Shown one piece after another: positions 5,435 to 59,929 of a stretch of 64,000 nucleotides of DNA. Made by a program: the position numbers and the translations under genes. The notes beneath the pieces are model-generated. The model did no database searches. It had not been told where the DNA came from and worked only from the letters and a program-made list of their open reading frames with translations. Source of the stretch: Bacteroidota bacterium (GTDB lineage: Bacteria; Bacteroidota; Bacteroidia; Bacteroidales; F082); assembly GCA_018816765.1 (NCBI GenBank), contig JAHIUX010000009.1:1-64000 (forward strand), given 5' to 3'. Numbering within the stretch: position 1 is the stretch's first letter; each line of letters starts with the position of its first letter.

Positions 5435-5485
5435 TTGTTGCAGATGAATCGTGTATAGTCTGTGAGACATGCAGGATCAACAGGA

Positions 5486-5947: not shown

Positions 5948-5964
5948 GGGAGGTATTCGTTAGT

Positions 5965-6315: not shown

Positions 6316-6423
6316 CTGTTTTTGCGATAAAATTACAAAAGCCTGCCAAGATAGCAAGCATACACCATCCGCATATGCTGATGGGTTCAGAAATTCACCC
6401 TGAGCTCGACCAGAAGTTCCTGA

Positions 6424-30810: not shown

Positions 30811-31938
30811 ATGAAATCACATTTCTGGTGGTCGGCCATCGTTCTTTGTTGCACAATAACGCTATTTTCCTGCTCCAATAAAACTTCAAAGCAAGGTGCA
30901 GGAAGCCAGACAGAACATTATTCTATTGGGGTAAACCTGCCGCTATCAGGGAATGCCGCTTATTTTGGCAGTGAATTATATAAAGGGCTTGCCCTTTCCT
31001 TTGCAGAAGCCGAAAAGCAATATGGTTGCCGTTTCGAAATCCTGGCAGAGGATAATCGCTTTCTTCCACAGGAAGCGGTGGGTATTGCCAAAAAGTTCAT
31101 TCATATTGCCAAGCCAAATGTGATTGTTTCAGGGTATTCAAACGTACTTCAGGCAACCATACCCCTTGTAGAAGAGTCGGGCATTCCGATGATCGCTTCA
31201 CTTTCGAGCGTTGCTGATATCGCAAAAAACAAACAATGGGTCATCCGTGATTTCAGCCTCGAGAGTCAGTTAATGCCAATGCTGGCCGAATATGTTTTTC
31301 ATACGGCGAATCTGAAAACAGGTAGTTTCCTTGTGGTAAACGATGACTTTGGTCAGGATTCGCGGAACTACTTCACCCAGGCATTCGAAACACTGGGAGG
31401 TCACATAACTGAAGGCGCTGTTTATTGTGAAGACGACCTTGATTTCAGAAACCTGGTCCAGAAAATACTGGTCAATAAACCCCAGTTTATGCTAGTAATC
31501 GGTAGAGGCGCCGGAATGGCCAATGCCATCAGGCGAATCCGCGAAGCGGATCCAAACGTATTGATTTGTGGTTCGAGCAGTTTCGACAACGACAAAATCA
31601 TGGCTTCGCTTGGGCATGATGCAGAGAACCTGGTTTTTACCAACTTCCACTGCAACACATCAAGTCAGGCATACCTGTCCGCAAATAATCTTTTCACTGA
31701 ACGGTATCAGCAAGGCATGAACTGGGTAAATGTGCTCGGATATACGATTGGAGAATATACTGCCGAAGCCCTGGTAAAATGCAAAGGCGATGGCAATAAA
31801 ATTATGGATTACCTGAGGTCAAATGAGTTCAACACCATCCGTGGAAAACTTACTGTGAACGGGAACAATGATATGCTTTCCGGCCTCAGTGTGTTTATCA
31901 GAGAAAACGCAAAAAACATTGAAATTGTAAACAATTAA
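30811..31938 (+). CDS. Periplasmic binding protein type 1 lipoprotein (LIV-binding-like)
   Basis: The 375-residue lipoprotein has signal residues 1-20 and the lipidated Cys21 in FSCSN. The mature protein is a type 1 periplasmic binding fold of the branched-chain amino acid/amide-binding branch (Peripla_BP_6): IGVNLPLSGNAAYFGSELYKGLALSFAEAE, then VGIAKKFIHIAKPNVIVSGYSNVLQA, and YTAEALVKCKGDGNKIMDYL at the end. No ABC permease or ATPase genes are adjacent. It is followed by a TonB-dependent receptor 18 bases later, so it may capture a ligand for or after outer-membrane uptake, or serve as a sensor. The ligand is unknown. Confidence 0.87.
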   Translation: MKSHFWWSAIVLCCTITLFSCSNKTSKQGAGSQTEHYSIGVNLPLSGNAAYFGSELYKGLALSFAEAEKQYGCRFEILAEDNRFLPQEAVGIAKKFIHIAKPNVIVSGYSNVLQATIPLVEESGIPMIASLSSVADIAKNKQWVIRDFSLESQLMPMLAEYVFHTANLKTGSFLVVNDDFGQDSRNYFTQAFETLGGHITEGAVYCEDDLDFRNLVQKILVNKPQFMLVIGRGAGMANAIRRIREADPNVLICGSSSFDNDKIMASLGHDAENLVFTNFHCNTSSQAYLSANNLFTERYQQGMNWVNVLGYTIGEYTAEALVKCKGDGNKIMDYLRSNEFNTIRGKLTVNGNNDMLSGLSVFIRENAKNIEIVNN

Positions 31939-31956
31939 CCAAAAACCAATCTGACT

Positions 31957-34668
31957 ATGAAAAAAGTGTTACCATTTTGGATCGTTATGATCCTTAGCGT
32001 ACTGTTTGTTCTACCAACCCAACTAAGTGCCCAGGAATTGAAAATGATCAGGGGCATCGTACGGGATAAACAAACAAAAGAAGTCCTTCCCGGAACGAAT
32101 ATTCAGATAAAAGGCACGACAACCGGCACAGTCAGTGGTATCGACGGTACTTTTGAACTGGCGGCTCCTGCAAAAGGGACAGCGGTGCTCATGTTTTCAT
32201 ACATAGGCTATGCAAGCCAGGCTATCGTTTGGCATAAAGAAGCGAAGCTTGAAGTTATGCTTGAATCGGCATCACTGCCAGGGACAGAGGTTGTGATAAG
32301 TGCCTCGCGCCTCAACCAGGAAATTCGTCAGGCCCCGATTGCAATTCAAAAACTTAATGCGCAACAGATCAACAATTCCGCTTCAGGCGATTATTTCAAC
32401 AGCCTTTCCAACCTGCGCGATGTTGAAATCATTAGCAACAGCATTGGTTTTGGCGCCTTCAACACCCGCGGGTTTAATTCAACCTCTCCTTTACGGGTGG
32501 TTCAACTGATTGATGGTGTTGATAATCAGCTGCCCACAATCAATATTGCCACAGGCAATATGTTTGGCATTTCCGATATTGATATCGAGAACCTCGAAAT
32601 TATTTCAGGACCTGCTTCCGCGCTTTATGGTGCCAATGCCATGCAGGGCGTGATCAGCTACACCAGCAAGTCTGCCTATACCAAGCAAGGTGTTTCAGCC
32701 GAAATCAAAGGCGGTAGCCGCGATTATATGTCGGGACAGTTTCGTTTTGCCGATACCTATGGCAAGCAAAAAAGGCTGGGAATTAAATTGACAGCTTCAC
32801 ATATGAATGCAAGCGACTGGGTCGCCGATGATCCTGTTGCCAATCGCTATGGCAAACAACCATCACCGCCACAAAACCTGACCCAGTTGATCGAAAGCAA
32901 ATCACAGGCAGGCAATGTGTTTGAGCAATTTATGAGTTATTCGCTCAATAACTCGTTGGTACTGCCAGGCAAGAAACAATTCCTCATGCCCGGATTTATG
33001 GAGTCCACATTGTGGGATGGCAAGGTAAACAACACCAAGTTCTCGGGCACCCTGAACTACAAGCTCACCGAAGACCTTACTGCAACATACAATTACCGCT
33101 ATTCAGAGGGTAAAAGTGTGTATATGGGCAACAACCGCGCTCCCCTTGACGGGTTTAACCAACAGTTGCATTACATTGGCCTGAACAGCAAACATTATCA
33201 GTTCAAGGCCTACCGGTCAAGCGACGACACAAAAAACACCTATGCCATGAACGCCACCGGCACCTTGCTCGGATTTGCCAGTCTGCCATCGGTCACCGGC
33301 TATTGGTCTGATGCTTACGTAAATGAGCTGAATACCTTGACCAATAATTTTGCCCTTGAGGCAACTCAAGCAATGGTTGATCAGGCAAACCAGGCGGCTT
33401 TAACAGAAAGCAACAACGGTTGGCTTGTGCCGGGAACAGCGGCCTTTAACACTGCCATCGAGAAAATCAAATCACAATCACCTCCTGTTGGCTCGCGTTT
33501 TGCCAGCAAAACTGTACTTTATCACACCGAATTTGATTATAACCGTTCTTACCGGATGTATGATTTCAATTTTGGCGTTTCCTATCGCTATATGTCGCCT
33601 GAGTCAAAAGGAACAACCTTCATGGACACCCTACAACAAGACGGCAGTTACCGTAAAATCAAGATGAATGAGTATGCAGGCTATTTGCAGGGCATTGCCA
33701 ACTTACCCGGAAACCACTGGAAGGTCCTGGCATCGGTGCGTCTCGATAAGAACGAGTATTATGCTGCACAGTTCTCACCCAGGCTTGCACTCACCTATCA
33801 GACCGGCGAACAGCATTTCAGGCTTTCGGCACAGTCGGCATTCCGCAGCCCGACGCTCACCGATTTATTTCAATACCTGAATAAAGGCACTGAGATTACC
33901 CTTGGCAATGCAAACGGCGTTGGAAATTTGTACACCTATAGCTCAGTGGTCGCTTTCCAAAATGGCGGATCGGCCGATCCCGGCTTATTGAAAACAACCT
34001 ACGTTGATGCGGTTAAACCTGAGCAATTGCAAAGCCTTGAACTCGGTTACAGCGGAACATGGTTCAAAAGCCTGATCACTGACTTCAGTATTTACTACAA
34101 TAATTACCGCAATTTCATCGTCTATCAGCAGGTTGTTCAGCCAAAATCGGGCACAGCTGGCGAAGCAAGCGGCGTAGCCGATATCGCCTCGCGCAATTAT
34201 CAGCGTTATGCCGTTGCCACAAACAGCAAAACTGATGTCAGCAGCCTTGGATTCAGCGCAGGACTGGGTTATTATGTTACGCCTAAAATAAAGGCATATT
34301 TCAACTATACCTATGCCAGCATTGATTCCAGCGGAATAGCCAAGGATCAGATTCCAGGCTTCAATACACCAAAGCACAAGGTTAACCTTGGCGTGGGCGG
34401 GCAGGAAGTGATTAAACAGCTTGGTTTCAATGTGAATTTCAGGTATGTCGACAGCTATTACTGGGAAAGTGTTTTTGCCAGCGGTCCTGTTCCATCCTAC
34501 AACACACTTGATGTACAGCTGAATTATGTTTTCCCGAAACTCTATTCAACCTTGAAAGTTGGCGGGGCAAATGTGTTCAACAACAAGTATATTCAGGCTT
34601 ACGGCATGCCGCAGATCGGCGCATTTTATTATGCCAGCTGGACTTTTGACCTTGACTTTAAGCACTAG
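31957..34668 (+). CDS. TonB-dependent receptor with carboxypeptidase-like N-terminal domain
   Basis: The 903-residue outer-membrane receptor has a signal peptide (cleavage near LSAQ). Next comes a carboxypeptidase-regulatory-like domain (about 30-110; IRGIVRDKQTKEVLPGTNIQIKG), then a plug domain (about 125-240; NSIGFGAFNTRGF and GPASALYGANAMQGVI), and a 22-strand barrel to the aromatic-rich end (FYYASWTFDLDFKH). It lacks a SusD-like partner, so it is a Cir/FhuA-type rather than SusC-type receptor. It is cotranscribed with the preceding type 1 binding lipoprotein. It ends two bases from the convergent acyltransferase gene. Confidence 0.94.
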   Translation: MKKVLPFWIVMILSVLFVLPTQLSAQELKMIRGIVRDKQTKEVLPGTNIQIKGTTTGTVSGIDGTFELAAPAKGTAVLMFSYIGYASQAIVWHKEAKLEVMLESASLPGTEVVISASRLNQEIRQAPIAIQKLNAQQINNSASGDYFNSLSNLRDVEIISNSIGFGAFNTRGFNSTSPLRVVQLIDGVDNQLPTINIATGNMFGISDIDIENLEIISGPASALYGANAMQGVISYTSKSAYTKQGVSAEIKGGSRDYMSGQFRFADTYGKQKRLGIKLTASHMNASDWVADDPVANRYGKQPSPPQNLTQLIESKSQAGNVFEQFMSYSLNNSLVLPGKKQFLMPGFMESTLWDGKVNNTKFSGTLNYKLTEDLTATYNYRYSEGKSVYMGNNRAPLDGFNQQLHYIGLNSKHYQFKAYRSSDDTKNTYAMNATGTLLGFASLPSVTGYWSDAYVNELNTLTNNFALEATQAMVDQANQAALTESNNGWLVPGTAAFNTAIEKIKSQSPPVGSRFASKTVLYHTEFDYNRSYRMYDFNFGVSYRYMSPESKGTTFMDTLQQDGSYRKIKMNEYAGYLQGIANLPGNHWKVLASVRLDKNEYYAAQFSPRLALTYQTGEQHFRLSAQSAFRSPTLTDLFQYLNKGTEITLGNANGVGNLYTYSSVVAFQNGGSADPGLLKTTYVDAVKPEQLQSLELGYSGTWFKSLITDFSIYYNNYRNFIVYQQVVQPKSGTAGEASGVADIASRNYQRYAVATNSKTDVSSLGFSAGLGYYVTPKIKAYFNYTYASIDSSGIAKDQIPGFNTPKHKVNLGVGGQEVIKQLGFNVNFRYVDSYYWESVFASGPVPSYNTLDVQLNYVFPKLYSTLKVGGANVFNNKYIQAYGMPQIGAFYYASWTFDLDFKH

Positions 34669-34669
34669 T

Positions 34670-35614
34670 CTAATCGTCTTCTTCCGGCGTTTCTGCTGAA
34701 ACGACCATTTGTCGGATAAACTTTTCAGTGAAACCCCAGTTCAAATGCTGGGGTTCATTTTTCCATAACATTGACAGCATCTCAATATACTGGCTGAGCA
34801 GCAGCATGACACGGTCCTGGTGATTCATGGCTTCGTCGCCTGAATTGAGCGGAGGGTAAATTTCGACACGGATATTTCCTTTCACATCAAGCCTGGCGAT
34901 CATAGGAACCACCGCAGCTCCCGTACTCAGTGCAAGTTCGGCAAAGCTTGGTCTGAATCCCCTGACCTTACCAACAAACTCGAAATTGATGCTCGATTTG
35001 CCATGATAGCCATCTCCCAAAAGATGCACAATGCCACCGTCCTTGAGTGATTGACGTGCCTTGAACAGCAGGCGGATTAACTCTTCGTTCGATTGGTCTT
35101 TAAACTTCAGCAAGGCAGGCTCATGTTCCTTTTTAATGCCTTTTACCTTAATTGAGTTAGCGCCCTTTTCGCGCACCACGGTGGCGATTTCAGGATATTT
35201 CATGCGCGAAAACACCGTAAGTGCGATTTCTGAAAAACCAAAATGGCTGTTCAGCAAAACCACACCCTTCTTTGCTGCAAGGGCATCATCGAGGTGTTGT
35301 TTTCCGACCACTTTCACACGCCTGAAGAACGCCTTGTCGGACAGGTAGGACAAGCTTGCTGAGCGCCATCCCTTTTGAAAGTTAAGTGTAAATGTTTCAG
35401 GAAATATGCGGTCAATATCTGTGATATCTGCTTGTTGGGCAAATTCGCGCAATACGAGCTCGCGGTGCCTGAAATATTCATTCCTGGCAAAATCAGTCCG
35501 GGTAAACCACCTGATCAGTCTGCTACCGACCGAATAGGGTATTATGAGGCTACCTTTTTCCGTTTCAAAGAAACTCCCAATCCGATCGACCCTGTTTTTA
35601 GTCAGTATTTTCAT
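34670..35614 (-). CDS. LpxL/HtrB-like acyltransferase
   Basis: The 314-residue protein belongs to the lysophospholipid/lipid A late acyltransferase superfamily. The catalytic dyad H-x4-E is seen in NSHFGFSE (His124, Glu129). The second conserved block is GGIVHLLGDG, and a later block is LALSTGAAVVPMIARL. Family members transfer acyl chains from acyl-ACP to glycolipids. It is the last gene of the seven-gene operon and follows the adenylation-carrier protein after one base, which suggests that the loaded carrier is its donor. N-terminal hydrophobicity is weak, so membrane association would be peripheral. Confidence 0.85.
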   Translation of the reverse strand: MKILTKNRVDRIGSFFETEKGSLIIPYSVGSRLIRWFTRTDFARNEYFRHRELVLREFAQQADITDIDRIFPETFTLNFQKGWRSASLSYLSDKAFFRRVKVVGKQHLDDALAAKKGVVLLNSHFGFSEIALTVFSRMKYPEIATVVREKGANSIKVKGIKKEHEPALLKFKDQSNEELIRLLFKARQSLKDGGIVHLLGDGYHGKSSINFEFVGKVRGFRPSFAELALSTGAAVVPMIARLDVKGNIRVEIYPPLNSGDEAMNHQDRVMLLLSQYIEMLSMLWKNEPQHLNWGFTEKFIRQMVVSAETPEEDD

Positions 35615-35615
35615 T

Positions 35616-37397
35616 TTAGTTCTCGTCTAGCCAGGCAGCAATCCGTTTTATAGTCGGTGCCGCCAGGATCAGGTCAATATTGAGTTTTTTACCAAATGAC
35701 TTTTCAACTTCATCAAGGGCTACAAACAGCTTAAGCGAGTCTTTGGCCAGTTGAATGATGCTGTGGTCACAACCAACCGGGTACACATCGAGGATCCGGC
35801 TGATGATTTCGGCAAGTTTAATTTCAGTAGGGCTCACAGGAGCTATCAGCTCATTCACTTTCTCAATGGCATTCCAGTCAGGATCAGGGATTTGTTTGAA
35901 ATCAATTTTGCCGTTGTAGGACTTGGGTAAGGCTTCAAGCTGCACAACGAAAGACGGAACCATATAATCCGGCAACATCCGTAATACGGCAATTTTTATC
36001 CTGGCTTCATCAAACTTATGTCCTTCGTTAATGACAACATAAGCTACCAGGTGCTTGCTGCCCATCGAATTTTCTTTTGGCAGTACGGCCACTTCGCGGG
36101 TTTCCGGGAGTTCCAGCAGCACACTTTCGATCTCACGCAAATCAATGCGGTAACCGCGCAATTTGACCATATTGTCTTTCCGTCCTACCATAATGAGTGC
36201 GCCATCGGGCTGCCTGTAACCCATATCACTGCTGCGAAAAACAGCTAGCTCTGGCTCCCCTTCGGCAGCCATGAACGCCCCGTTTCCCTGATTCGACTCG
36301 CCCCAATAGCCACCCGCCATATAGGCGGATTTGAGCCACAGTTCACCAATTTTTCCTTGCTGGCAAGGGTTTCCCGATTCATCCATCACCATCGTCTGCA
36401 CGCCTTCTACATCCCAGCCAATCGGAATGCTGTTTGAAACCAGCAAGTCGCCTTTTTTTATCGGGAATGCACAGGTCAGGTAGGCTTCCGTTGAGGCCAG
36501 CATATGATACACAATAGATTGATCAGTAAGGTGTGGTAACAGCTTTTCAACATCAGCCCTGAACAGGCTTTCACCGCCCGACATGACAACCCTTAAATCG
36601 GGGAAACTGTGGCTGTTATTCAGGGTAGCGGTAAAATTTCTCAGTATTGAAGGGATCATCAGCGCCACCGAAATCTTCTGTGAGGTCAACCAGTTTCGGA
36701 AGGCCGAAAGCGATTCCCTTTTAAGGTTAAAGAGCACTAAAGCCGCACCATTCATCAGGGCGCCCAGCATGGGCATGCCGTGGGCCGAAAAGCTGATCGA
36801 TACAAAATAACCTACGCGATCATGGTGATCAATGGAAGCGAGTTTGCTGAAACGCCAGGCAAAATGACTCAGCGAACGATGGGTGTACCAGCTTCCTTTA
36901 GGCAAGCCGGTAGAACCTGAGGTGTAGATGATGGCACACAGGTCATTGGCGTCCGGAATTAATAACTGTTTAACTGTCTGATTTTCTATAACTTCAGCAT
37001 TGATGACCGGGATTTCGCTATTCAGCACTTTCGCCTGTGCCAGGTTTTTTGTGTTTGAAACAATGGCCGAAACGCCGGCATCATTAAGGATATACAAAAG
37101 CCTGTCAGCGGGATAGGCGGTATCGAGTGCAACGTAAGCACATCCCGCCTTGATGATGCCAAATATACCGACAAACTGCATGATGCTATGTTCGATGAAA
37201 AGGGCTATTCTGGTACCTTTCTTTGGCTGTAGTCCGGCAATCTGTCCGGCGACCTGATCTGAGAGCCGGTTAAATTCAGCATAGCTGAGCTGGTCGTTAT
37301 GGTCAATTATAGCTGGCCGGTAAGGAAAATCGGAAGCCATTTTATGCAACTGTTGCACCAATGTTGGTCCGGGCCATGCGTTAAAATCTTGATACAT
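35616..37397 (-). CDS. NRPS-like adenylation domain fused to an acyl carrier domain
   Basis: The 593-residue protein has an adenylation domain (about 1-505): A2 KAGCAYVALDTAYPADR, A3 CAIIYTSGSTGLPKGSW, a GGES segment, A7 FRSSDMGYRQPDG, A8 GRKDNMVKLRGYRIDLREIE and A10 NGKID. A carrier domain (about 520-593) follows, with phosphopantetheine Ser554 in KDSLKLF. By eye the A4 FDxS is FSAH here, so the Asp that holds an alpha-amino group in amino-acid-activating domains is Ser; the substrate may be a non-amino acid. No condensation or thioesterase domain is present. Start at 37397 follows the upstream stop by 16 bases. Next comes the LpxL-like gene. Confidence 0.88.
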   Translation of the reverse strand: MYQDFNAWPGPTLVQQLHKMASDFPYRPAIIDHNDQLSYAEFNRLSDQVAGQIAGLQPKKGTRIALFIEHSIMQFVGIFGIIKAGCAYVALDTAYPADRLLYILNDAGVSAIVSNTKNLAQAKVLNSEIPVINAEVIENQTVKQLLIPDANDLCAIIYTSGSTGLPKGSWYTHRSLSHFAWRFSKLASIDHHDRVGYFVSISFSAHGMPMLGALMNGAALVLFNLKRESLSAFRNWLTSQKISVALMIPSILRNFTATLNNSHSFPDLRVVMSGGESLFRADVEKLLPHLTDQSIVYHMLASTEAYLTCAFPIKKGDLLVSNSIPIGWDVEGVQTMVMDESGNPCQQGKIGELWLKSAYMAGGYWGESNQGNGAFMAAEGEPELAVFRSSDMGYRQPDGALIMVGRKDNMVKLRGYRIDLREIESVLLELPETREVAVLPKENSMGSKHLVAYVVINEGHKFDEARIKIAVLRMLPDYMVPSFVVQLEALPKSYNGKIDFKQIPDPDWNAIEKVNELIAPVSPTEIKLAEIISRILDVYPVGCDHSIIQLAKDSLKLFVALDEVEKSFGKKLNIDLILAAPTIKRIAAWLDEN

Positions 37398-37413
37398 ATA
37401 GGGGTGCTTCTTT

Positions 37414-39561
37414 CTATTCGTTACTGGATGAGATGACTTTTTCATAAACCTGCAACGTTTCAATGGCGGCTTTGCGCCACGAAAAGTCAAGCGATCGCTT
37501 CAATGCTTTGCGACCAAGCGATTCACGCAAGGCAGGGTTTGCATAAATCTGTTCAAATTTCGTCATTATTTCCTCAATATCGTCCGGGTTAGCCGATAAA
37601 CCACCATCAGCAATAATTTCGGGCAATGATGACCTGTTGCTGTAAATTACCGGTGTTCCGCAGCTCATCGCTTCAAGCGGTGGAAGTCCAAATCCTTCAT
37701 AAAAGGAAAGGTAGGTCAATGCAAGTGCCTCAGAATAAAGGGCAGCAAGGTCACCATCATCTATAAAGCCTGTAAAAAACACCCTGTCGGTAAACAGTTT
37801 ATTCTGAACAAAAAGTTTGTTGGTCATCCAGCCTTTTTTTCCGGCAATGACGAGGTTGAGGTGAAGCCCTTCATGTTTTGTTGCCAGCCTGAGAAAGGCC
37901 TGAATGGTGTTTCCAAGGTTTTTTCGTGGCTCAATTGTCGACAGGCTCAACAAATATGGAATTCCGTCGGGAATGCCATATTTCTCTTTTATTTTCCGTG
38001 TTTCATCGCGGTTAATCCGAAAGCTGAACTTCTCCCTGTCGGCGGCTTCATGCACCATATGCACATGGTATTCGGGCAGCTTGAGTTCTTTTTGGGTATC
38101 GTGCAGGGTTGAAGCGGAAACTGCCAGCACATGGGCCTTACGCTGACTGATAAATTTCAGGCCCTGTTCAGCATTAGAGATATTGATGGCAGTGTGATGC
38201 TCAGGAAAAAGCCGGTGTGTAAAATCGTGTATGGTCACCAGAAGGGGTCGCGCTGTTTTGCGAAATGAGAAGAAATGTTGCTGCAATGGCAGGTGAATCA
38301 GGTCATACCGGTTAAACTGTAACGTGAGCCTGTTCAGCCTTTTGTTGTCGCGCATCCTGAAAAGGAGGCGAAGAATAAAGGCACTGATTTTTTTAACCGT
38401 GTCAATCACAAAGTCGATCAGGCCAAAGGCTGCTTTCTTTATGCCGTCATATAGCTTATGGAATACGAGGATGTTGTGGCTGATCAGGTAGCTGACCCAG
38501 CGGTCTGGAATCATTTCAAGCAAGGCAAACTCGAAGCGCTGAAAAAGGCTGCGCTTTTCGGCAGGTGTCTGGCTGCCCTTTGCTGTTTGCTCCGGCATTG
38601 AAAAATCATGATTCAGGGCTTGGTTAAACTCCTTAAGCGGAACTAATCTTCCTGACATAAACAGGTCAAAATGCCATCGGGCATCCGGATTTTGTTCAAT
38701 TTTATTGAATTGCTTTAACAATTCCGACTGATACCTTTTGACGCCATCATTGTCGTGGTGAACCATTTTTTCAGCTTCCAGCAACACCTTCATCTTTCGC
38801 TCATGACTGGGGAGTTTCTGTCCAAGTTTTAGCGCCACATCAAAATCGAAGTCGGGGTTCAGCGAGATAATATTGCCATCGCGGCCATACCCCAGGTGTT
38901 CCATCACTTCGCCGTGATAGCTCCAGAAGAGGTCGTGCATTTCGTCTGACATTTCGTCTCTCCAGCCTCCTGCTTTCCCTTTTCTGAAATTTTTCGCTGA
39001 TAAGGCGAGCATTTCTTCTTCGCTCAGTCCGCGTCCTTTTCCGCTTCCATACTCTGCAACGCCTGCTTTCATTTTATTGAAACCCGGCAGCTTGCTGGCG
39101 TCAGGCGCGGGCAGATGCATGATGGCGCGCAGCCGTTCAGCGCATGCAAGGGGGTCGGCCAGCAGGTCCTCGTATCGGATGATGATGTCGGCCCTATCGA
39201 TCCATTCGAGCACATTGCGCGACCATCCACCGAAAAAGCTCCCTTTTTCAGCAATAATGGCAGCTTTAAGGTTTTCGTGAAAATCGGAACCCGGAGCCAC
39301 AATATCCTTGCGGTGATGTGCCAGCGAAACCATAGTATCTCTTCCATCCCTGATAATATACACTGCCTTGATGTCAGGATCGGCCGGAACCAGTTGTGAC
39401 GGCAATAAATGGGTTTTTACACAGGGAAAAGCTGCATAATCCTTGTCGAGGAAATAATCTGCATCCTGATGATAGGTGCTCGATTTCAAGCCATACACTT
39501 CGTAAAGTATGTTCCTGAAAAAGGTATTACCCGAACGTGGAAATGAGGCTAACCAAATCAT
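37414..39561 (-). CDS. Fusion of sulfotransferase and GT4 glycosyltransferase
   Basis: The 715-residue protein has an N-terminal sulfotransferase domain (about 1-235) with PAPS 5'-phosphosulfate loop SFPRSGNTF (6-14) and 3'-phosphate motif IRDGRDTMVS (about 71-80). A predicted-helical linker (about 235-350) follows. The C-terminal GT4 domain (about 390-715) has SLSTIEPRKNLGNTIQAF, VIAGKKGW and the E-x7-E motif YEGFGLPPLEAMSCGTPVI. The start ATG overlaps the upstream stop as ATGA. Together the domains suggest coupled sugar transfer and sulfation of the same glycan. A sequencing frameshift cannot explain the fusion, since one frame covers both domains. Confidence 0.9.
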   Translation of the reverse strand: MIWLASFPRSGNTFFRNILYEVYGLKSSTYHQDADYFLDKDYAAFPCVKTHLLPSQLVPADPDIKAVYIIRDGRDTMVSLAHHRKDIVAPGSDFHENLKAAIIAEKGSFFGGWSRNVLEWIDRADIIIRYEDLLADPLACAERLRAIMHLPAPDASKLPGFNKMKAGVAEYGSGKGRGLSEEEMLALSAKNFRKGKAGGWRDEMSDEMHDLFWSYHGEVMEHLGYGRDGNIISLNPDFDFDVALKLGQKLPSHERKMKVLLEAEKMVHHDNDGVKRYQSELLKQFNKIEQNPDARWHFDLFMSGRLVPLKEFNQALNHDFSMPEQTAKGSQTPAEKRSLFQRFEFALLEMIPDRWVSYLISHNILVFHKLYDGIKKAAFGLIDFVIDTVKKISAFILRLLFRMRDNKRLNRLTLQFNRYDLIHLPLQQHFFSFRKTARPLLVTIHDFTHRLFPEHHTAINISNAEQGLKFISQRKAHVLAVSASTLHDTQKELKLPEYHVHMVHEAADREKFSFRINRDETRKIKEKYGIPDGIPYLLSLSTIEPRKNLGNTIQAFLRLATKHEGLHLNLVIAGKKGWMTNKLFVQNKLFTDRVFFTGFIDDGDLAALYSEALALTYLSFYEGFGLPPLEAMSCGTPVIYSNRSSLPEIIADGGLSANPDDIEEIMTKFEQIYANPALRESLGRKALKRSLDFSWRKAAIETLQVYEKVISSSNE

Positions 39562-40268
39562 ATGGCTGCAATGTTTAAGTTTCGGGTGCGCCATTCAATG
39601 GCTTCTGCATATAGCCTGTAATCGTCGCTGTTAAGCTCCCTGATTTCGGCAAGTACTTCAGGATCGACCATCGGACGGGCTGATGTTACATTGTGTTTAA
39701 GGTTCGGATAGCTGTTCCAACCTAAGATGCCGGCAAGCCGTTTAAGGTCTGCTTCATAAGTTTCCTGTAACCCAATAAATGCAAATTGGTTAAGGTCCAT
39801 CCCGGCCAGGAACTTACTCATTCGGTTCCGGTTGATTTCATCGCGCGAAAATTCGATCAGCGAGCGCTGCATCTTGGCCAGGATATTGAGGCCTTTGCGC
39901 TCCTCATCCAGCTCTTCGCGCAGGCGTTCCGACAAATAGAAATAATTTGAAAGGACCCGCTGCGAGGGCTCTCTGAGCCAGGTTATCCATTTTGCCGAGG
40001 GTGGAACATTGACCTGCTCTACCAGGTCGAGGTAATGAAAATGTCCGTGAATGCCTTTGATGTTTTCGGGGAGCCTGTCCCTTTCGAAAGGCTTGCTTTC
40101 GATGTCGATCTTCCTGGTTTTAATTTTTATGTCGAAGCGCACGATATTTTCTTGGCCATACACAGCCTTAAGGATGTTACGAAAAGAGGTGCCCGCTGTT
40201 TTTGGTATGTGGAGTGATACCAACTCCAGGTTGCCGGCTTTTACGCGTTTATCTTTTGAAAATAGCAT
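39558..40268 (-). CDS. Sulfotransferase (family 2-like)
   Basis: The 236-residue protein carries the PAPS-binding motifs of the heparan/chondroitin-type sulfotransferase family: 5'-PSB LHIPKTAGTSFRNIL near residue 20 and 3'-PB WLREPSQRVLSNYFYL near 97. It ends in a helical segment typical of the family. It has no signal peptide or TM, so it acts in the cytoplasm on a precursor. It is the second of three sulfotransferase modules in this operon; its end overlaps the next gene by four bases (ATGA). Confidence 0.92.
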   Translation of the reverse strand: MLFSKDKRVKAGNLELVSLHIPKTAGTSFRNILKAVYGQENIVRFDIKIKTRKIDIESKPFERDRLPENIKGIHGHFHYLDLVEQVNVPPSAKWITWLREPSQRVLSNYFYLSERLREELDEERKGLNILAKMQRSLIEFSRDEINRNRMSKFLAGMDLNQFAFIGLQETYEADLKRLAGILGWNSYPNLKHNVTSARPMVDPEVLAEIRELNSDDYRLYAEAIEWRTRNLNIAAI

Positions 40269-40272
40269 GGTC

Positions 40273-40959
40273 TTATTTTAATGATTTTTGTTCCCAGTAG
40301 CCTTTCCTTTTTAACTCCTCAGCCTCAGCAAAAAGCGCCATGTCCAGTGCGTTGATCCGCGCTATCTCAGACCGCATTTCCTGTGTGATCTGCCCGAATG
40401 ATGTAGGATAGAATATGTTATCGTTTTCATAGCTACGTTGATTTACCGCTTCAATCAGCAATGGTTTCTCCCAGTTTAACAGCTTCGCCAAGGCAATGAC
40501 ATCTTGTTGAAAATTTTCCTGAAACCCAACAAAATCAAGCTTTTCAAGAGATATCCCTTCGAGATAAGTGCACATTTTATTGTGGATGCTGTCTTCAGCA
40601 TAGTCCATCAGGCTGTAGTTTTTTTTGAAGGCATGCGGATGATCCGGCCGGCCATTGATGGCGCGATGCATAAAGTAATAATTCGAAATCACCCTGTCGA
40701 CAGGTTGCCGCAGCCAGCAAATCAGCCTTGGCTGATTTTGCTGATATATCCTGCTGATATGGCTGAAGTAAAGATGTCCGTGAACAACAGTCGTTTCACT
40801 TGCAAAGTCGGCAGAATCAAGTTGTCGCTCGATGCCATCAGGAAAATAATGGATGCGCTTGAACCTGTGATCAAGCTGGGATCCATATTCCCGGCCAAGC
40901 AAGCCAAAAAAGGCAGTGCCTGCAGTTTTGGCAATATGCAGTGAAATCAGTTTGATCAT
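40273..40959 (-). CDS. Sulfotransferase (family 2-like)
   Basis: The 228-residue protein has 5'-PSB LHIAKTAGTAFFGLL (about 7-21) and 3'-PB WLRQPVDRVISNYYFM (about 85-100). It is clearly paralogous to the next gene in motif spacing and in shared segments such as GHLYFSHI and a C-terminal EIARINALDMALFAEA. It starts 6 bases after the ATPase stop and ends 4 bases before the next gene. Three PAPS-dependent modules in one operon suggest several sulfated positions on one product. Cytoplasmic. Confidence 0.92.
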   Translation of the reverse strand: MIKLISLHIAKTAGTAFFGLLGREYGSQLDHRFKRIHYFPDGIERQLDSADFASETTVVHGHLYFSHISRIYQQNQPRLICWLRQPVDRVISNYYFMHRAINGRPDHPHAFKKNYSLMDYAEDSIHNKMCTYLEGISLEKLDFVGFQENFQQDVIALAKLLNWEKPLLIEAVNQRSYENDNIFYPTSFGQITQEMRSEIARINALDMALFAEAEELKRKGYWEQKSLK

Positions 40960-40965
40960 AATCGG

Positions 40966-41757
40966 CTAAAACGACTGGTCATCATCTACGTAATCCCGGA
41001 GATTCAGTTTGTCGACCCTGATTTTGTTTTTATACATCTCAAACACCTCATCGGGTGTTCCCATGCCAACGAGTTCGCCTTTATGCATAAGGATCACCCT
41101 TGTGGCATAATGCCTGATGGTGCTCAGGTTGTGGCTTACATGCACAATGGTGCGGCCTTTCAGCACACTTTCCTTGAAGACCTTGTCGGATTTGACCTTG
41201 AATTTTTCATCACCCACACCACCAAAAAATTCATCCATAAGCAGGATTTCGGCATTGGCGTGGATTGCCACTGCAAATGAAAGTCTGGCTTTCATTCCGC
41301 GTGAATAGAACTTGATTTTGGTATCAACATATTCCTCAAGCTCGGCGAAGGCGATCATCTCATCGAATTTCTCATTGATTTCGCGCAGCGTGAGCCCCAT
41401 AACCGAGCCGTTGAGGTAAATATTCTCCCTTGCAGTAAGTTCCTGGTTGAATCCCAATCCCAAACTCAAGCGGATGAAGTTTCCGCTAATTTCGGCCTTA
41501 CCTCCCTTTTCGGGTTTGTAAAACCCGGTCATCAGGTGAATCAGCGTGCTTTTACCACTACCGTTTTCACCCACGATTCCAAGGAATTCTCCTTTTTTTA
41601 CTTCCAGGTTAATGTTTTTCAGTGCTTCAATCCTGCGGATATTTTTCCCGGTGAACACCCAACCCAATTGGGTGAAAAAAGAAGCCACTTTCTTGTCGCG
41701 AAACACAAATGTCTTGCTGACGTTCTCAAGCCTGATTACCGTTTCCTTGTTTTCCAT
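40966..41757 (-). CDS. ABC-2 type exporter ATPase for polysaccharide (TagH/Wzt-like)
   Basis: The 263-residue ATPase has Walker A GENGSGKST (63-71), the export-specific SLGLGFNQELTARENIYLNGSVMG block, signature YSRGMKARLSFAVAI, and a modified Walker B LLMDEFFGGVGDEKF. These are features of the KpsT/TagH/Wzt group. It lacks the C-terminal carbohydrate-binding domain of O-antigen Wzt proteins, so chain selection must rely on something else. It starts one base after the permease stop. Confidence 0.94.
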   Translation of the reverse strand: MENKETVIRLENVSKTFVFRDKKVASFFTQLGWVFTGKNIRRIEALKNINLEVKKGEFLGIVGENGSGKSTLIHLMTGFYKPEKGGKAEISGNFIRLSLGLGFNQELTARENIYLNGSVMGLTLREINEKFDEMIAFAELEEYVDTKIKFYSRGMKARLSFAVAIHANAEILLMDEFFGGVGDEKFKVKSDKVFKESVLKGRTIVHVSHNLSTIRHYATRVILMHKGELVGMGTPDEVFEMYKNKIRVDKLNLRDYVDDDQSF

Positions 41758-41758
41758 C

Positions 41759-42556
41759 CTATAATTTCTCCATGGCTTTGTGAAAATACCGGTTAAAAAT
41801 CAACATCCCAATCACAAGCAGCACAAGGGCATACAGCCAGTCGAATGCCATCATCGTCATGTCGGGGGCTTTTGCATACATCAGCGCATCCCTCAGGTTG
41901 ACAATGATACCGGCAATGGGGTTGATATACATCAGCGAAGGAAAGGTTTCGAAGATCAGTGCCTTGGCATAAAAAATCGGGTTGATCCAAAACATCCCCA
42001 GCAAAAACACATCCCATACCTGGCTGATGTCCTTCAGGAAGCTGTTCAGAATAACCAATATCAGGCTGATGGCGAAAACCAGCACAGCAAGGTTTAGCAT
42101 CAGCGGAAACATCCACAGGATATGAAACGAATAGGATATATTGAAGAAAGGACTGATGGCGATAAACACAAAGATATTGAATGCCAGTCCGATAACCGTA
42201 CTCAGGATAGAGGAGGTGAAGCCATCGTATAGGTTCATCTTGATGTTTTCGTAGAGGTAGCGTTTGCTGCGCAGGATCATCAATCCCTTGCGGGTGGCTT
42301 CCTGAAAATACATCCAGACGATGAGCCCCGAAAAGATATACATCCCGTAATTCGGAATATTCTGATTAAGGATATAGGAGAAAATAACCCAGTAAATGAT
42401 CATTCGGATCAAGGGATGCAAAAATGCCCAGATTAAGCCAAGGGTAGTTTCGTAGTAGCGCAGCTTGAAATCGGTTTTTGCCAGGATCCAAATCCGCTCG
42501 AGTTGGTTGTTCTCGGGGATGTATTTGCTTAGAAGATTAGTAAGGCTGATGGGCAT
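41759..42556 (-). CDS. ABC-2 type exporter permease (TagG/Wzm-like)
   Basis: The 265-residue inner-membrane protein has about six transmembrane segments. Its family pattern is NQLERIWILAKTDFKLRYYETTLGLIWAFLHPLIRMIIYWVIFSYIL, then GLIVWMYFQEATRKG, and FYAKALIFETFPSLMYINPIAGIIVNLRDALMY, all typical of TagG/KpsM/Wzm. With the next gene it forms a complete exporter for an undecaprenol-linked or phosphatidyl-linked glycan. It is the first gene of the operon. Confidence 0.95.
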   Translation of the reverse strand: MPISLTNLLSKYIPENNQLERIWILAKTDFKLRYYETTLGLIWAFLHPLIRMIIYWVIFSYILNQNIPNYGMYIFSGLIVWMYFQEATRKGLMILRSKRYLYENIKMNLYDGFTSSILSTVIGLAFNIFVFIAISPFFNISYSFHILWMFPLMLNLAVLVFAISLILVILNSFLKDISQVWDVFLLGMFWINPIFYAKALIFETFPSLMYINPIAGIIVNLRDALMYAKAPDMTMMAFDWLYALVLLVIGMLIFNRYFHKAMEKL

Positions 42557-42672: not shown

Positions 42673-44505
42673 ATGAAACGTTTAAAAGATTTATTCCTTG
42701 TTTATGACAAAATAGTTGTGATTCTTGCTTTGATAGCCGGGATTACAGCAGTGTATTATGCTAGCCTAAGTGTTGATTTTCAATTCGATGATTTGTTAAG
42801 TATCGTCTACAACCGCCGGCTGCATAGCTTGTCGGGTTTTGCTGATTTGCACTACTGGCTCAACCCCAACAACAGGGCATTGGGTTACTTCACTTTTGCG
42901 CTAAACTATCAGGCCGGACAACTCAATCCCACAGGTTATCATGTGGTTAATATGGTTTTACACCTGTTGACCAGTTATATGGTTTATGCGTTTAGCCTGT
43001 TGTTGCTCAACCTAAAGGCTCCTGAAGGATATTCAGACAATAGAAAAAAGATGCTGGCTTTCGTCGCAGCAGTCATTTTTGCACTGCATCCCGTGCAAAC
43101 AATGGCCGTAACCTATGTGGTTCAACGCCTTACACTGCTGGTAAGCTTGTTTTATCTCACTTCGGCTTTTTGCTATGTGAAAGCGCGCATGGCGATGATA
43201 GAAAACAAGGGCAAAAAAGCCAGGTACTACTTTGGTTTCGCTTTTTTATCATTTGTACTGGGCATTTTGTCAAAGCAAAATATTTTCACGCTCGTCCCGA
43301 TGCTACTCATGATCGAATGGATGGTGTTCGTTAAGCCTGGTGAAAAAACACCCATGTGGCTGAAGTTCAGTTTTTTTGGTGGGCTGATGATGATAACGGC
43401 CTTACTTGCAACGGGTTTAATGCCCGCCGAAACATCTTCCATCAGCCGCACCGATTATCTGCTTACGCAAGCTGTTGTTTTAATCGAATATATAAAGTTG
43501 ATCTTCTGGCCTTTAAACCTGAACATTGATCATTTTATTGCTGTGCAGCATACATTATTTAATGTGGCTGTGATCGGCGGGTTAATCCTGTTTCTACTGA
43601 TGGCAGGCCTGGCAATATTTATGCGTAATGGCAGGTTCCGCCTCACAGGCATCAGTATCCTGTGGTTTTTTATTGCGCTCAGTGTTGAGTCCTCGCTGAT
43701 TCCCATCAGCGATGTGATGTTCGAACACAGGCTTTATCTTCCGCTTGCAGGCCTGATCACGGGCATCGTATTTGGCGTTGATGCCCTTTGGGGCAAGGGA
43801 AGAAATTTCATGCCGCTGCTGTTGTTTGCCGTACTTGCCGGTCTGGCGGTTGTCACCTATCAGCGGAACCTGGTCTGGCAGGACGAATATGCGCTGTGGT
43901 CTGACAGCATGAAACAATACCCCGACAACCCAAGGGCCGTGAATAATGTGGGACTGGCCCTTAAAAAGCGGGGAAATATTGAACAGGCATTGGAGTTTTA
44001 CAACAAAGCGCTTGCTTTGAAACCGGATATGGTAGAAGCCCTGTATAATAAAGGCCTGGTATATTTTGACCAGGGCAATTACCCGCTCGCCATCGAGCAG
44101 TTTGACCGTGTGCTCGCGCAATCACCGAAAAAAATTGATGTGCTGGGCTTCAGGGGAGTCAGCTATGGTCACCTGAAAAACTATGATAAGGCCTTGGCTG
44201 ACCTGGATGCCTATATAGCTGTGGACAGCTTATCAGGTGCTATTTTCATGAATAGGGGCATCCTCTTCAGCATGGCCAATAAACAGCAGGAAGCCGTCCG
44301 GGATTTTACCAAAGCCATGAAACTCGATCCAACAAATACTGCTTTGCTCATCAATCGCTCACAATCGTATTATCTTATGGGCATGATGAAAGCAGCTTAC
44401 GACGACATAGTGGCAGCGAAAGCAGCCGGACATTCAACTGACCAACGCTATATCAACGATTTAAATGCCTTGTTGAATGGCGCCGAACCGAAGGGCAATC
44501 AATAA
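42673..44505 (+). CDS. TMTC-like membrane glycosyltransferase with TPR repeats
   Basis: The 610-residue protein begins with about ten transmembrane helices (1-400). The first outer loop has FDDLLSIVYN, then NPNNRALGYFTFALNYQAGQLNPTGYHVVNMVLHLLTSYM, the signature of the TMTC/PMT-like group of GT-C O-mannosyltransferases. Four to five TPR repeats (about 410-600; AVNNVGLALKKRGNIEQALEFYNKAL and VEALYNKGLVYFDQGNYPLAIEQF) face the periplasm. In eukaryotes TMTC proteins mannosylate cadherins; the bacterial substrate is unknown. It is divergent from the sulfo-glycan operon and leads the GT2-DUF2304 pair. Confidence 0.85.
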   Translation: MKRLKDLFLVYDKIVVILALIAGITAVYYASLSVDFQFDDLLSIVYNRRLHSLSGFADLHYWLNPNNRALGYFTFALNYQAGQLNPTGYHVVNMVLHLLTSYMVYAFSLLLLNLKAPEGYSDNRKKMLAFVAAVIFALHPVQTMAVTYVVQRLTLLVSLFYLTSAFCYVKARMAMIENKGKKARYYFGFAFLSFVLGILSKQNIFTLVPMLLMIEWMVFVKPGEKTPMWLKFSFFGGLMMITALLATGLMPAETSSISRTDYLLTQAVVLIEYIKLIFWPLNLNIDHFIAVQHTLFNVAVIGGLILFLLMAGLAIFMRNGRFRLTGISILWFFIALSVESSLIPISDVMFEHRLYLPLAGLITGIVFGVDALWGKGRNFMPLLLFAVLAGLAVVTYQRNLVWQDEYALWSDSMKQYPDNPRAVNNVGLALKKRGNIEQALEFYNKALALKPDMVEALYNKGLVYFDQGNYPLAIEQFDRVLAQSPKKIDVLGFRGVSYGHLKNYDKALADLDAYIAVDSLSGAIFMNRGILFSMANKQQEAVRDFTKAMKLDPTNTALLINRSQSYYLMGMMKAAYDDIVAAKAAGHSTDQRYINDLNALLNGAEPKGNQ

Positions 44506-44509
44506 ACCA

Positions 44510-45250
44510 ATGAAACAAAAAACAACCAATAAAATCCTGATCATCATTCCAGCCTATAATGAAGCTGAAACTATCTCGGCCTTGCTTCAGGCTGTTCACA
44601 AGGAAAATTCAACCTGGGATATCCTTGTGATCAATGATGCGTCTACCGATGCAACCGAGGAGTTGGCCAGGGCCAGCATGATAGCCCGTGTGATTACACT
44701 ACCAATTAACCTTGGCATCGGCGGTGCTGTGCAAACAGGCTTTAAATATGCCGTGCGCAACGGGTATCAGGTAGCGCTTCAGCTCGACGGTGACGGGCAA
44801 CACCCTGTCAGCGAAATCAACAAACTGATCACCATGGTCCTAGAAGACGAAGCTGATGTGGTAATTGGATCAAGGTTTAACAAAAAGAAAAATGGGGTGA
44901 AAACGCATTTCCTGCGCCGCACGGGCATTAAGCTGTTTGAATGGTTTAGCTTTATGTTGATCCGGCAGCAAATTACGGATCACACCTCCGGCTTCAGGGC
45001 GTATAACAGTCGCGCACTGGCATTCTTAGCCGAGAATTATCCCACTGATTTTCCAGAACCTGAGGTAGTTATCCTTTTGGGTAAAAACAACTTCAGGATG
45101 AAAGAAACCTTTACGCAGATGCTGGAACGTCAGGGAGGTGTATCCTCTATTCCCATTGCGAAAGGGCCATATTATATGTTTAAGGTATTGTTGGCCATGT
45201 TTATGGCAGCCATCCGTTCACGCATTATTCACAATGAAACAGCATCATGA
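44510..45250 (+). CDS. GT2 glycosyltransferase, polyprenyl-phosphate sugar synthase-like
   Basis: The 246-residue protein has the GT-A fold: IIIPAYNEAETISALL at the start, the DXD-type LDGDGQHP, then DHTSGFRAYNSRAL. The pattern LGIGGAVQTGFKYA is typical of dolichol/polyprenyl-phosphate mannose or glucose synthases. It starts 4 bases after the TMTC-like stop, and its stop overlaps the next gene as ATGA. A lipid-linked sugar made here could feed the adjacent TMTC-like GT-C enzyme, which uses such donors. Confidence 0.93.
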   Translation: MKQKTTNKILIIIPAYNEAETISALLQAVHKENSTWDILVINDASTDATEELARASMIARVITLPINLGIGGAVQTGFKYAVRNGYQVALQLDGDGQHPVSEINKLITMVLEDEADVVIGSRFNKKKNGVKTHFLRRTGIKLFEWFSFMLIRQQITDHTSGFRAYNSRALAFLAENYPTDFPEPEVVILLGKNNFRMKETFTQMLERQGGVSSIPIAKGPYYMFKVLLAMFMAAIRSRIIHNETAS

Positions 45251-45687
45251 CATCCGCATTTAATCCCAATCAGGTTCAATATATTGCCATCGCATTCAGC
45301 TGGTTGTTGTTTGTGGTTATTCTTTACCTGATCAGAAAAAGAAGAATAAAAGAAGAGTATTCGCTCATGTGGCTCTTATTCAGCTTGTTGTTTATAGGTT
45401 TTTCGTTTTGGCGTCGAGGACTGGATATAATTTCCTCCTTTTTGGGCATCGCCTACCCTCCTGCTGCCTTGTTTATGATTTTACTCATGGCCGTGTTTCT
45501 AATCATGATCGAATTCTCGATGATCATCTCAAAATTATCGGACAGAAATAAGGTGTTGGCGCAGGAAATCGGCTTGCTTCATTTTGAGCTGAATAAGTTA
45601 AAACGAAAATTACATAAGCCCGGGAAAGAGAAAAAACAAGGTACAAAACCACAAAGCGGGAATTCCGGAGCAGGAGTAAAAAAATAA
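45247..45687 (+). CDS. DUF2304 membrane protein
   Basis: The 146-residue protein has three hydrophobic segments (about 5-25, 35-55, 67-90), then a coiled, lysine-rich tail. The pattern LYLIRKRRIKEEYSLMWLL and a following FWRRGLDIIS are the DUF2304 signature. These proteins are usually encoded right after a GT2 gene, as here, and are thought to act with it at the membrane. The start overlaps the GT2 stop by four bases (ATGA). Confidence 0.9.
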   Translation: MTSAFNPNQVQYIAIAFSWLLFVVILYLIRKRRIKEEYSLMWLLFSLLFIGFSFWRRGLDIISSFLGIAYPPAALFMILLMAVFLIMIEFSMIISKLSDRNKVLAQEIGLLHFELNKLKRKLHKPGKEKKQGTKPQSGNSGAGVKK

Positions 45688-59711: not shown

Positions 59712-59929
59712 AGAAATTGAATTGAAGCATAAATATAGTTCAATATTACGCCACAAGTACTTACAGCACAATTTTTTTTGAATGCCAACCTGAACTCCCG
59801 CAAACTTTGGCCATTCAAATGTGATTTACACACAATCCATAATCGGTGTCATGAGCTTGCACGTTTTTATACAACGGGCTTAGGTACAGCTTATAACAGC
59901 ATTTTACAACTTGCGGAAATTAACCTTTT

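Follow-up and report, generated by a model that had tools for sequence, protein, structure and literature searches.

A sulfotransferase-GT4 fusion within a seven-gene Bacteroidales operon: a candidate pathway for a sulfated surface glycan

What is made by seven tightly packed genes that place an ATP-binding cassette (ABC) exporter beside three sulfotransferase modules, a glycosyltransferase (GT), an adenylation-carrier protein and an acyltransferase? The genes lie at positions 34670-42556 of a 64,000-nucleotide stretch (hereafter the window) of contig JAHIUX010000009.1, from a Bacteroidota bacterium of the order Bacteroidales (assembly GCA_018816765.1); the source genome is 3.57 Mb and 96.8% complete. 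Coordinates are positions in the window unless a locus is named, and other genomes, loci and contigs carry G, L and C numbers. A first-pass annotation, made from the sequence alone, had placed seven open reading frames (ORFs) here, all on the minus strand. They were present at those coordinates, and the identities proposed for them were upheld, the Pfam cut-offs being reached by 7/7 proteins. From permease to acyltransferase the order is ABC-2 permease, ATPase, two sulfotransferases (ST1 and ST2), sulfotransferase-GT4 fusion, adenylation-carrier protein and LpxL-like acyltransferase. As a dedicated pathway the operon is convincing; its product is putative.

The operon and its relatives

The tight packing was as described, with junction gaps of 1, 6, 4, -4 (an ATGA overlap), 16 and 1 bases. 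Starts called by the ORF finder were too long for two genes, the likelier codons being the ATG at 39561 (fusion) and the ATG at 37397 (adenylation protein). Promoter and terminator scans gave counts close to those of shuffled sequence (16 against a mean of 12.3, standard deviation 4.0, and 11 against 9.6, standard deviation 3.3), and we infer co-transcription of the seven genes from spacing and synteny only. A foreign base composition was considered and rejected; the GC fraction per 1 kb was 0.418-0.495, inside the window range of 0.373-0.503.

The same gene order was sought in other genomes, the check proposed with the first-pass annotation, and it recurs in relatives. Two congeneric genomes (G001 and G002) hold all seven genes in identical order, flanked by the same divergent and convergent genes, save that ST1 of G001 is broken. 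The full cassette was found in eight Bacteroidales genomes, on one contig each for the window, G001, G002, G456, G518 and L018 and on two contigs each for G372 and G070. With content and order recurring in the two congeneric genomes and in further families, the grouping does not look like chance.

An initial scan of genome contigs, with one protein as the query, confirmed no relative. The fusion-type sulfotransferase domain (E up to 1e-20) was found in 5/173 genomes of the family, 7/393 of the order and 3/395 of the phylum, the window's own genome included; in one of the seven order genomes (G257) the domain is a separate protein. A scan of named records yielded at least 46 distinct fusion-type loci, a lower bound since only two peptide patterns were used. 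Holders comprised Bacteroidales metagenome-assembled genomes (MAGs), Saprospiraceae, Lewinellaceae, Phaeodactylibacter, Cryomorphaceae, Flavobacteriaceae including Dokdonia, and two Halieaceae, which are gammaproteobacteria. Related fusion loci in the named strains Phaeodactylibacter xiamenensis, Neolewinella aurantiaca, Pseudohalioglobus sediminis and Mangrovimicrobium sediminis make chemistry on a cultured strain look possible; in the stretches examined, these four loci held no adenylation/acyltransferase module.

Partner genes were tabulated for 24 distinct fusion loci, the window excluded, each flanked on either side by 5 kb or more. Duplicates (L017, L020, L030, L032, L063, L065, L066 and L067) were dropped, as was L070; 11 loci were put aside for want of a full fused ORF, and 14/38 fusion loci for a flank of less than 5 kb. 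A further sulfotransferase lay within 8 kb at 20/24 loci and an ABC permease with its ATPase at 14/24. G010 holds the exporter, three ST1/ST2-family enzymes (by profile search), the fusion, an extra Sulfotransfer_3 gene and two GT4-like genes. A wider core of fusion, other sulfotransferases and often an ABC exporter spans Bacteroidota.

Several loci carry variations of their own. At L028 (7140-12169) two sulfotransferase-GT4 fusion genes flank an ST1/ST2-family gene. L024 encodes, at 5386-7683 beside exporter and fusion genes, a 765-aa protein with Wzy_C (O-antigen ligase/polymerase) and GT4 domains, and L027 encodes a long ATPase. In the Halieaceae loci L021 and L022 the fusion gene has a GT2 gene and a DUF2304 gene within 8 kb, and both are nested among Bacteroidales rows in the fusion tree; this placement suggests transfer of the fusion between phyla. 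Loci of Saprospiraceae type and of Phaeodactylibacter encode, close to the fusion, a membrane protein of 1,050-1,150 aa with many hydrophobic segments (for example L029 7763-11206, L034 11083-14499, L026 13224 and L046 12058), in several of them between a GT4 gene (GT4a, below) and a GT2 gene. This protein had no match in the PDB (one member searched), Pfam (one member) or NCBIfam (three members).

Enzymes of the operon

The fusion (37414-39561, minus strand; 715 aa) reached 59.1 bits for Sulfotransfer_1 (PF00685; cut-off 22) and 111.5 bits for Glycos_transf_1 (cut-off 26.4). PF00685 covers about residues 1-250, and a complete GT-B fold is predicted for 254-715. In an alignment of 40 fusions including that of the window (807 columns), the motifs SxPRSGNT and RxGRDxxxS for binding 3'-phosphoadenosine 5'-phosphosulfate (PAPS) were conserved in 40/40, and R and G of RKG were invariant; by curated score and PAPS motifs the N-terminus is a PF00685 sulfotransferase. 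On the glycosyltransferase side, E of EPRKN was present in 40/40 and the two Glu of E-x7-E in 39/40 and 40/40. The AlphaFold2 model had a predicted local distance difference test score (pLDDT) of 86.1 and a predicted template modelling score (pTM) of 0.83. Its fold search returned GlgM (6tvp_A; Z 34.5, root-mean-square deviation 3.4 over 346 residues) and MshA (Z 34.4), which count as tied, being within 1 Z; glycosyltransferase matches fill the list, so the result concerns the GT half. GT-B fold in the model and E-x7-E motif together point to a retaining GT4 glycosyltransferase at the C-terminus. A PDB sequence search placed the PF00685 domain nearest to sulfotransferases of the SULT type, with E values of about 1e-6 or weaker. 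Genome-wide, PF00685 had two matches, the fusion and a Sulfotransfer_3 protein on contig C82, near a ketosynthase-III gene. Recent plasmid spread of the fusion was rejected as none of 72,556 plasmid records covers 80% of it; three records had any match, and the best place in each covers the GT half only.

ST1 (40273-40959) and ST2 (39558-40268), both on the minus strand, belong to the Sulfotransfer_2 family (PF03567; cut-off 22), with 26.5 bits for ST1, the weakest match of the seven proteins, and 37.2 bits for ST2. They are identical at 59/215 aligned positions (27%). The family tree divided into two clades, A with 25 sequences, including ST1, and B with 29, including ST2; it was made with FastTree, without bootstraps, from ORFs of 200-280 aa, a range into which neither the truncated L013 ST1 nor the double sulfotransferases of L039 and L058 fall. 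Both clades were present at 20 loci, A only at one and B only at six; one of the six, L013, does hold an ST1 frame, broken and too short to enter the tree. A single protein in L039, and likewise in L058, has a clade B half followed by a clade A half, which brings the loci with both clades to 22. These fused paralogs (L039 7827-9257 and L058 4478-5926; 476 or 482 aa) occur in Lewinella relatives. ST1 and ST2 are old paralogs.

In that family four residues were invariant in 54/54 sequences: the Lys of the 5'-phosphosulfate-binding (PSB) site, the second His of HGH and, at the 3' PAPS site, an Arg and a Ser. The first His of HGH was present in 52/54. Both window proteins thus combine the curated score with the PAPS-binding residues of PF03567 carbohydrate sulfotransferases. 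Up to E=1, ST2 matched only two heparan sulfate 2-O-sulfotransferase constructs in the PDB (4ndz among them; E=0.03), with HGH aligned; the His residues of this motif have a catalytic role. A genome-wide PF03567 search gave a single match, ST2, and 0/14 control genomes had one.

The permease (41759-42556, minus strand; PF01061 ABC2_membrane, 45.1 bits, cut-off 26.9) and the ATPase (40966-41757, minus strand; 263 aa; PF00005 ABC_tran, 78.7 bits, cut-off 25) adjoin with a gap of 1 base, which fits the arrangement of Wzm/Wzt-type ABC-2 glycan exporters. The ATPase is too short for a long C-terminal glycan-binding domain. NCBIfam exporter equivalog scores fell below cut-off for both proteins: the best match of the permease was galactan Wzm/RfbD (45.9 bits against 380), and those of the ATPase were teichoic-acid and galactan exporter ATPase models (galactan Wzt, 148.2 bits against 400).

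The adenylation-carrier protein (35616-37397, minus strand; 593 aa) contains AMP-binding (PF00501, 212.4 bits), AMP-binding_C (PF13193, 44.4 bits) and PP-binding (PF00550, 26.5 bits) domains, and the core motifs of its adenylation domain are intact by eye. At the pocket position which we take to be GrsA 235, where Asp binds the alpha-amino group, Ser was found in 7/7 aligned sequences including that of the window, and likewise in L084-L086; two LgrA modules in the alignment carry Asp. Ser in place of the pocket Asp argues against an alpha-amino acid as substrate, and neither glycine nor any other acid of that class was supported as the activated one, in a comparison made with LgrA and not with AlmE. 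The carrier Ser (DSL) was present in 7/7 aligned sequences, and a stand-alone G372 copy reads NSL.

The LpxL-like acyltransferase (34670-35614, minus strand; PF03279 Lip_A_acyltrans, 63.1 bits, cut-off 22.3) has HFGFSE as the H-x4-D/E motif of LpxL/LABLAT acyltransferases; across its subfamily the His was present in 10/10 and the acid in 7/10. Late acylation of lipid A, its obvious candidate role, was not supported. It was set aside because the best NCBIfam lipid A equivalog score (37.3 bits against 248) was far under cut-off and because a second, better-scoring PF03279 enzyme is encoded elsewhere in the genome.

Neighbours, product and rival readings

Divergent from the operon, and starting 116 bases from the permease gene, are three plus-strand genes. 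The first (42673-44505) encodes a polytopic membrane protein with nine hydrophobic segments and C-terminal tetratricopeptide repeats (TPRs), a presumed periplasmic glycosyltransferase. The second (44477-45250) encodes a GT2 of the polyprenyl-phosphate-sugar synthase type (PF00535, 90.3 bits; NCBIfam PpgS, 107.4 bits against a cut-off of 370), and the third (45247-45687) a DUF2304 membrane protein (PF10066, 83.2 bits), a GacJ-like partner of the GT2. TPR and GT2 genes were present in all eight cassette genomes, and the DUF2304 gene in all but G070, where the contig ends inside the GT2 gene. A GT2 with a small DUF2304 membrane partner is the pairing of three-component periplasmic glycosylation systems, and the trio is probably part of the sulfated-glycan locus. 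The N-terminal part of the TPR protein had no Pfam match or convincing PDB match. Its fold search listed TPR proteins, with VIA-align rows mostly at 404-610, so the TPR half dominates that result.

Two further GT4 genes, named by Pfam, lie on the minus strand at 51307-52404 (GT4b) and 52401-53513 (GT4a). ORFs in 14 other distinct loci matched GT4b at 37-46% identity and ORFs in 21 matched GT4a at 38-48% (one-way BLAST matches), each match spanning at least 93% of the GT4 in question; GT4a is the probable counterpart of a GT4 gene often beside the fusion elsewhere, and GT4b of GT4 genes in other fusion loci. In the window the two lie at least 5.6 kb from the DUF2304 gene, and several counterparts elsewhere directly adjoin the fusion gene. 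They too are probably part of the locus.

On the other side, convergent with the operon, are genes for a TonB-dependent receptor (31957-34668, plus strand; Plug and CarboxypepD_reg domains) and, beside it, a Peripla_BP_6 binding protein (30811-31938, plus strand; PF13458, 119.6 bits). A receptor homolog (48-71% identity, BLAST) follows the acyltransferase gene in each of the five other cassette genomes with enough contig on that side. It is kept convergent in the window, G001, G002, L018, G070 and G372, in the last with a methyltransferase gene between. A binding-protein homolog (38-57% identity, BLAST) lies beside the TonB gene in G001, G002, G070 and G372, the window making five; the L018 contig ends within the receptor gene. 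This linkage (30811-34668 in the window; also L013, L014, L018, L047 and L086) gives an export operon an uptake-type neighbour. Elsewhere in the window, at 57855-59771, a GH130 domain is followed by a response-regulator receiver domain in a single 638-aa protein.

For sulfate donor synthesis, an APS (adenosine 5'-phosphosulfate) kinase gene on contig C9 adjoins a PAPS_reduct-domain gene (CysD by eye) and an Inositol_P gene (CysQ by eye), in a region that also holds a GFO_IDH oxidoreductase and a UDP-sugar dehydrogenase. Pfam, applied to a subset of the window genes, found no PAPS gene among them. In L027 sulfate-activation genes (cysC/D/N-like) do lie within the locus, those for an APS kinase, an EF-Tu-like GTPase and a protein with a PAPS_reduct domain being immediately upstream of the genes for a methyltransferase, the exporter and the fusion. 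Three proteins of the genome match Wzy_C, so that an O-antigen-like product may have its ligase here.

The pathway that we propose would run as follows. In the cytoplasm a sugar chain linked to a lipid would be made by the GT4 enzymes (fusion, GT4a and GT4b). Three different positions would receive sulfate from PAPS, one each through ST1, ST2 and the sulfotransferase domain of the fusion, an enzyme in which one sulfation would be coupled to one sugar transfer. A carboxylic acid, probably of a kind other than alpha-amino acids, would be activated by the adenylation domain and loaded on the carrier of the same protein; from this adjacent carrier the LpxL-like enzyme would pass the acyl group to a hydroxyl, either on the glycan or on its lipid. 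The product would leave through the Wzm/Wzt-like transporter, and the GT2/DUF2304/TPR trio would add a further sugar outside. The reading is drawn from gene content, order, motifs, the predicted GT-B fold and recurrent partners; activities, sugar, acid, acceptor and anchor are all putative. That the operon with its divergent and distant partners assembles, decorates and exports one sulfated surface glycan is held here at somewhat better than even chances, and an O-antigen-like or other lipid-anchored glycan would be the likeliest final product. Sulfation at several sites, a carrier-bound acid and ABC export had all been part of the first-pass annotation and are still best supported. Its unit has had to be redrawn: the divergent trio at 42673-45687 is added, the GT4 genes at 51307-53513 probably belong, and the adenylation/acyltransferase pair is separable.

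Several observations weigh against this reading. No ABC pair was detected within 8 kb at 10/24 fusion loci, and no further sulfotransferase at 4/24. ST1 falls under the genome-wide PF03567 threshold, and the ST1 frame of the congeneric G001 (L013 8330-9075) has an in-frame stop; the step may be dispensable, the gene may have decayed, or the stop may be a MAG error. The PAPS genes are on another contig, next to sugar-nucleotide genes that may serve a different polysaccharide. Assignment of the TPR membrane protein to the GT-C fold was unsupported by Pfam, PDB sequence search and fold search. The acid of H-x4-E is missing from both stand-alone acyltransferases and from the G372 cassette copy. 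In G010, a member of the same family as the window, the 20 kb examined include exporter, sulfotransferase and fusion genes but none for an adenylation protein or an acyltransferase.

The product might instead be a small sulfated lipo-oligosaccharide or glycolipid on the logic of Nod factors or the mycobacterial sulfolipid, with few sugars, one acyl group and several sulfates, exported when finished. The operon itself has a single GT gene, the acyltransferase and its dedicated carrier share it, and the short ATPase has no space for a long C-terminal domain, all as such a product would have it; Nod factor and mycobacterial sulfation are also mentioned in the available part of the synechan study (PMC8205485). 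The counterparts of GT4a and GT4b together with the GT2 trio, however, imply at least four glycosyl transfers, the seven genes include no ketosynthase, and related loci hold a Wzy_C protein (L024) or a long ATPase (L027). We regard the small product as unlikely, though a serious contender; the sequence alone does not tell a glycolipid from a longer glycan.

It is similarly doubtful that the adenylation-carrier/LpxL-like pair is a passenger, modifying a membrane lipid or lipid A independently of the sulfated glycan. PF03279 enzymes typically act on lipids. Two pairs stand alone with no sulfotransferases near (L084 5192-7924 and L085 7405-10139), both in genomes that also have the cassette. Acylation is placed outside the core because the glycan genes of G010 come without the pair, and the two genes are, on present gene content, a separable module missing from many related loci. 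Against independence, in the order sample the acyltransferase subfamily was confined to genomes with the fusion-type domain: it was found in 4/393, all of them among the 7/393 with the domain (Fisher p 3.6e-8, or 2.0e-6 without the window's genome, as a guide only, since three of the four share one family, kinship is uncorrected and the same genome draw is assumed for both counts). At its six loci, the window included, the adenylation-carrier gene was directly upstream in 6/6, so that adenylation domain, carrier and LpxL-superfamily transferase are encoded together, as in AlmEFG. The pair lay directly after the fusion gene in 7/7 rows of the fusion tree that carry it. These seven fell inside one set of eight, the eighth (L023) being without it, which takes two changes against a shuffled mean of 6.6. 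The tree was a quick IQ-TREE run without bootstraps, from which G372 (fusion cut by a contig end) was excluded; the module was scored absent even near contig ends, with less than 1.5 kb after the fusion in L016, L019, L025, L035, L043 and L050. Acylation recurs, moreover, in another form, an MBOAT O-acyltransferase being encoded instead beside or near the fusion gene in L024, L027 and L028, and the second PF03279 enzyme is at hand for lipid A.

Sulfation of small molecules or other lipids, by enzymes that merely share an operon with an exporter, is very improbable. The nearness of the PF00685 domain to SULT-type PDB sequences speaks for it; the fusion to GT4 in all 40 aligned sequences, the weak similarity of ST2 to heparan sulfate 2-O-sulfotransferase and the recurrent linkage to other sulfotransferases and exporters speak against. 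Least probable of all is a Kdo (3-deoxy-D-manno-octulosonic acid)-linked capsule of group 2/3 type, for which the same parts are on record (ABC exporter and sulfotransferases in Vibrio sp. KMM 8419 and Cobetia marina KMM 1449, with an acyl group in the Vibrio, in the available parts of PMC11641403 and PMC11766843) but which is disfavoured as PF05159 (KpsC/KpsS) had no match in the 96.8% complete genome, the same search being positive in 2/14 control genomes (E. coli and B. subtilis).

A bolder form of the preferred reading, of a single exported sulfated glycan, is put forward only tentatively and is probably too strong. It would make the locus a bacterial counterpart of glycosaminoglycan-style sulfation, in which a conserved sulfotransferase trio (two heparan-2-O-sulfotransferase-like paralogs and the GT4 fusion) sets a fixed pattern during chain building, the fusion sulfating each added sugar; one lineage would add a carrier-loaded non-amino acid through an LpxL-type enzyme acting on sugars and not on lipid A. 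If true, this would be a widespread and so far undescribed sulfated-glycan pathway of Bacteroidota. The conserved fusion is in any case a sequence handle for finding producers across that phylum, its paired activities offer a test of sulfation coupled to sugar transfer, and the separable pair suggests a route by which exported glycans could be acylated from a dedicated carrier.

Comparison with known systems

The first-pass annotation knew of no described pathway combining these parts. That was too strong, as a sulfated, O-acylated, ABC-exported capsule has been published for Vibrio sp. KMM 8419, with sulfotransferases in its ABC-transporter locus (PMC11641403, seen in part). Besides its ABC exporter the locus has PAPS genes and more than one sulfotransferase, an acyltransferase has been proposed for it, and the solved structure bears sulfate and an O-acyl group. 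That capsule differs in being of Kps-type group 3, and its proposed sugar-adding enzyme is a GT1+GT4 protein with an SQD2 domain; the available part of the paper describes neither a sulfotransferase-GT4 fusion nor an adenylation-carrier/LpxL pair (PMC11641403). Cobetia marina KMM 1449 likewise makes a sulfated, ABC-exported capsule, with sulfotransferase and PAPS genes in one locus, and has KpsSC and KpsETMD, whereas the window's genome has no PF05159 match (PMC11766843, in the part available). Sulfated glycans have been called scarce in bacteria outside cyanobacteria (PMC8205485, in part), a view now tempered by these two marine capsules. The synechan xss cluster of Synechocystis resembles the present locus in two sulfotransferases of distinct subfamilies and several glycosyltransferases; it differs in Wzx/Wzy export and in having no acyl module among the gene groups listed in the part seen, where sulfotransferases are also noted in ABC-type cyanobacterial clusters (PMC8205485). 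A putative Pontiella cluster is another sulfated-glycan cluster (PMC7356697, in part).

In the open-access literature searched, of which coverage was partial, no description was found of the sulfotransferase-GT4 fusion or of the seven-gene cassette. The parts are known; their combination and the fusion enzyme look unstudied.

For the divergent trio, GacI/GacJ offers a GT2 that charges polyprenyl phosphate, a DUF2304 partner and a polytopic transferase (PMC8327497, in part), and Gtr-type three-component systems with a small membrane partner modify an ABC-exported O-antigen in Klebsiella (PMC11127046, in part). Unlike the transferases of such three-component systems, the window's membrane protein carries TPRs, and its GT-C fold is only presumed.

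The Nod factor pathway combines an ABC-2 exporter (NodIJ), a sulfotransferase (NodH), a dedicated acyl carrier (NodF) and an acyltransferase (NodA), and in this it resembles the operon. It differs in that the seven genes have no Pfam match of chitin-oligosaccharide synthase or NodA type, and that there are three sulfotransferases here, one of them fused to a GT4. The acyl module resembles AlmEFG, in which AlmE reportedly adenylates and AlmG is said to be an LpxL relative. In Vibrio cholerae that system glycylates lipid A with three proteins including a carrier, and it has been likened, for its one esterification, to D-alanylation machinery (PMC4790380, in the part available). In the present locus, by comparison, adenylation domain and carrier are joined in one protein, the pocket has Ser for Asp, and the pair shares its operon with a glycan exporter and sulfotransferases.

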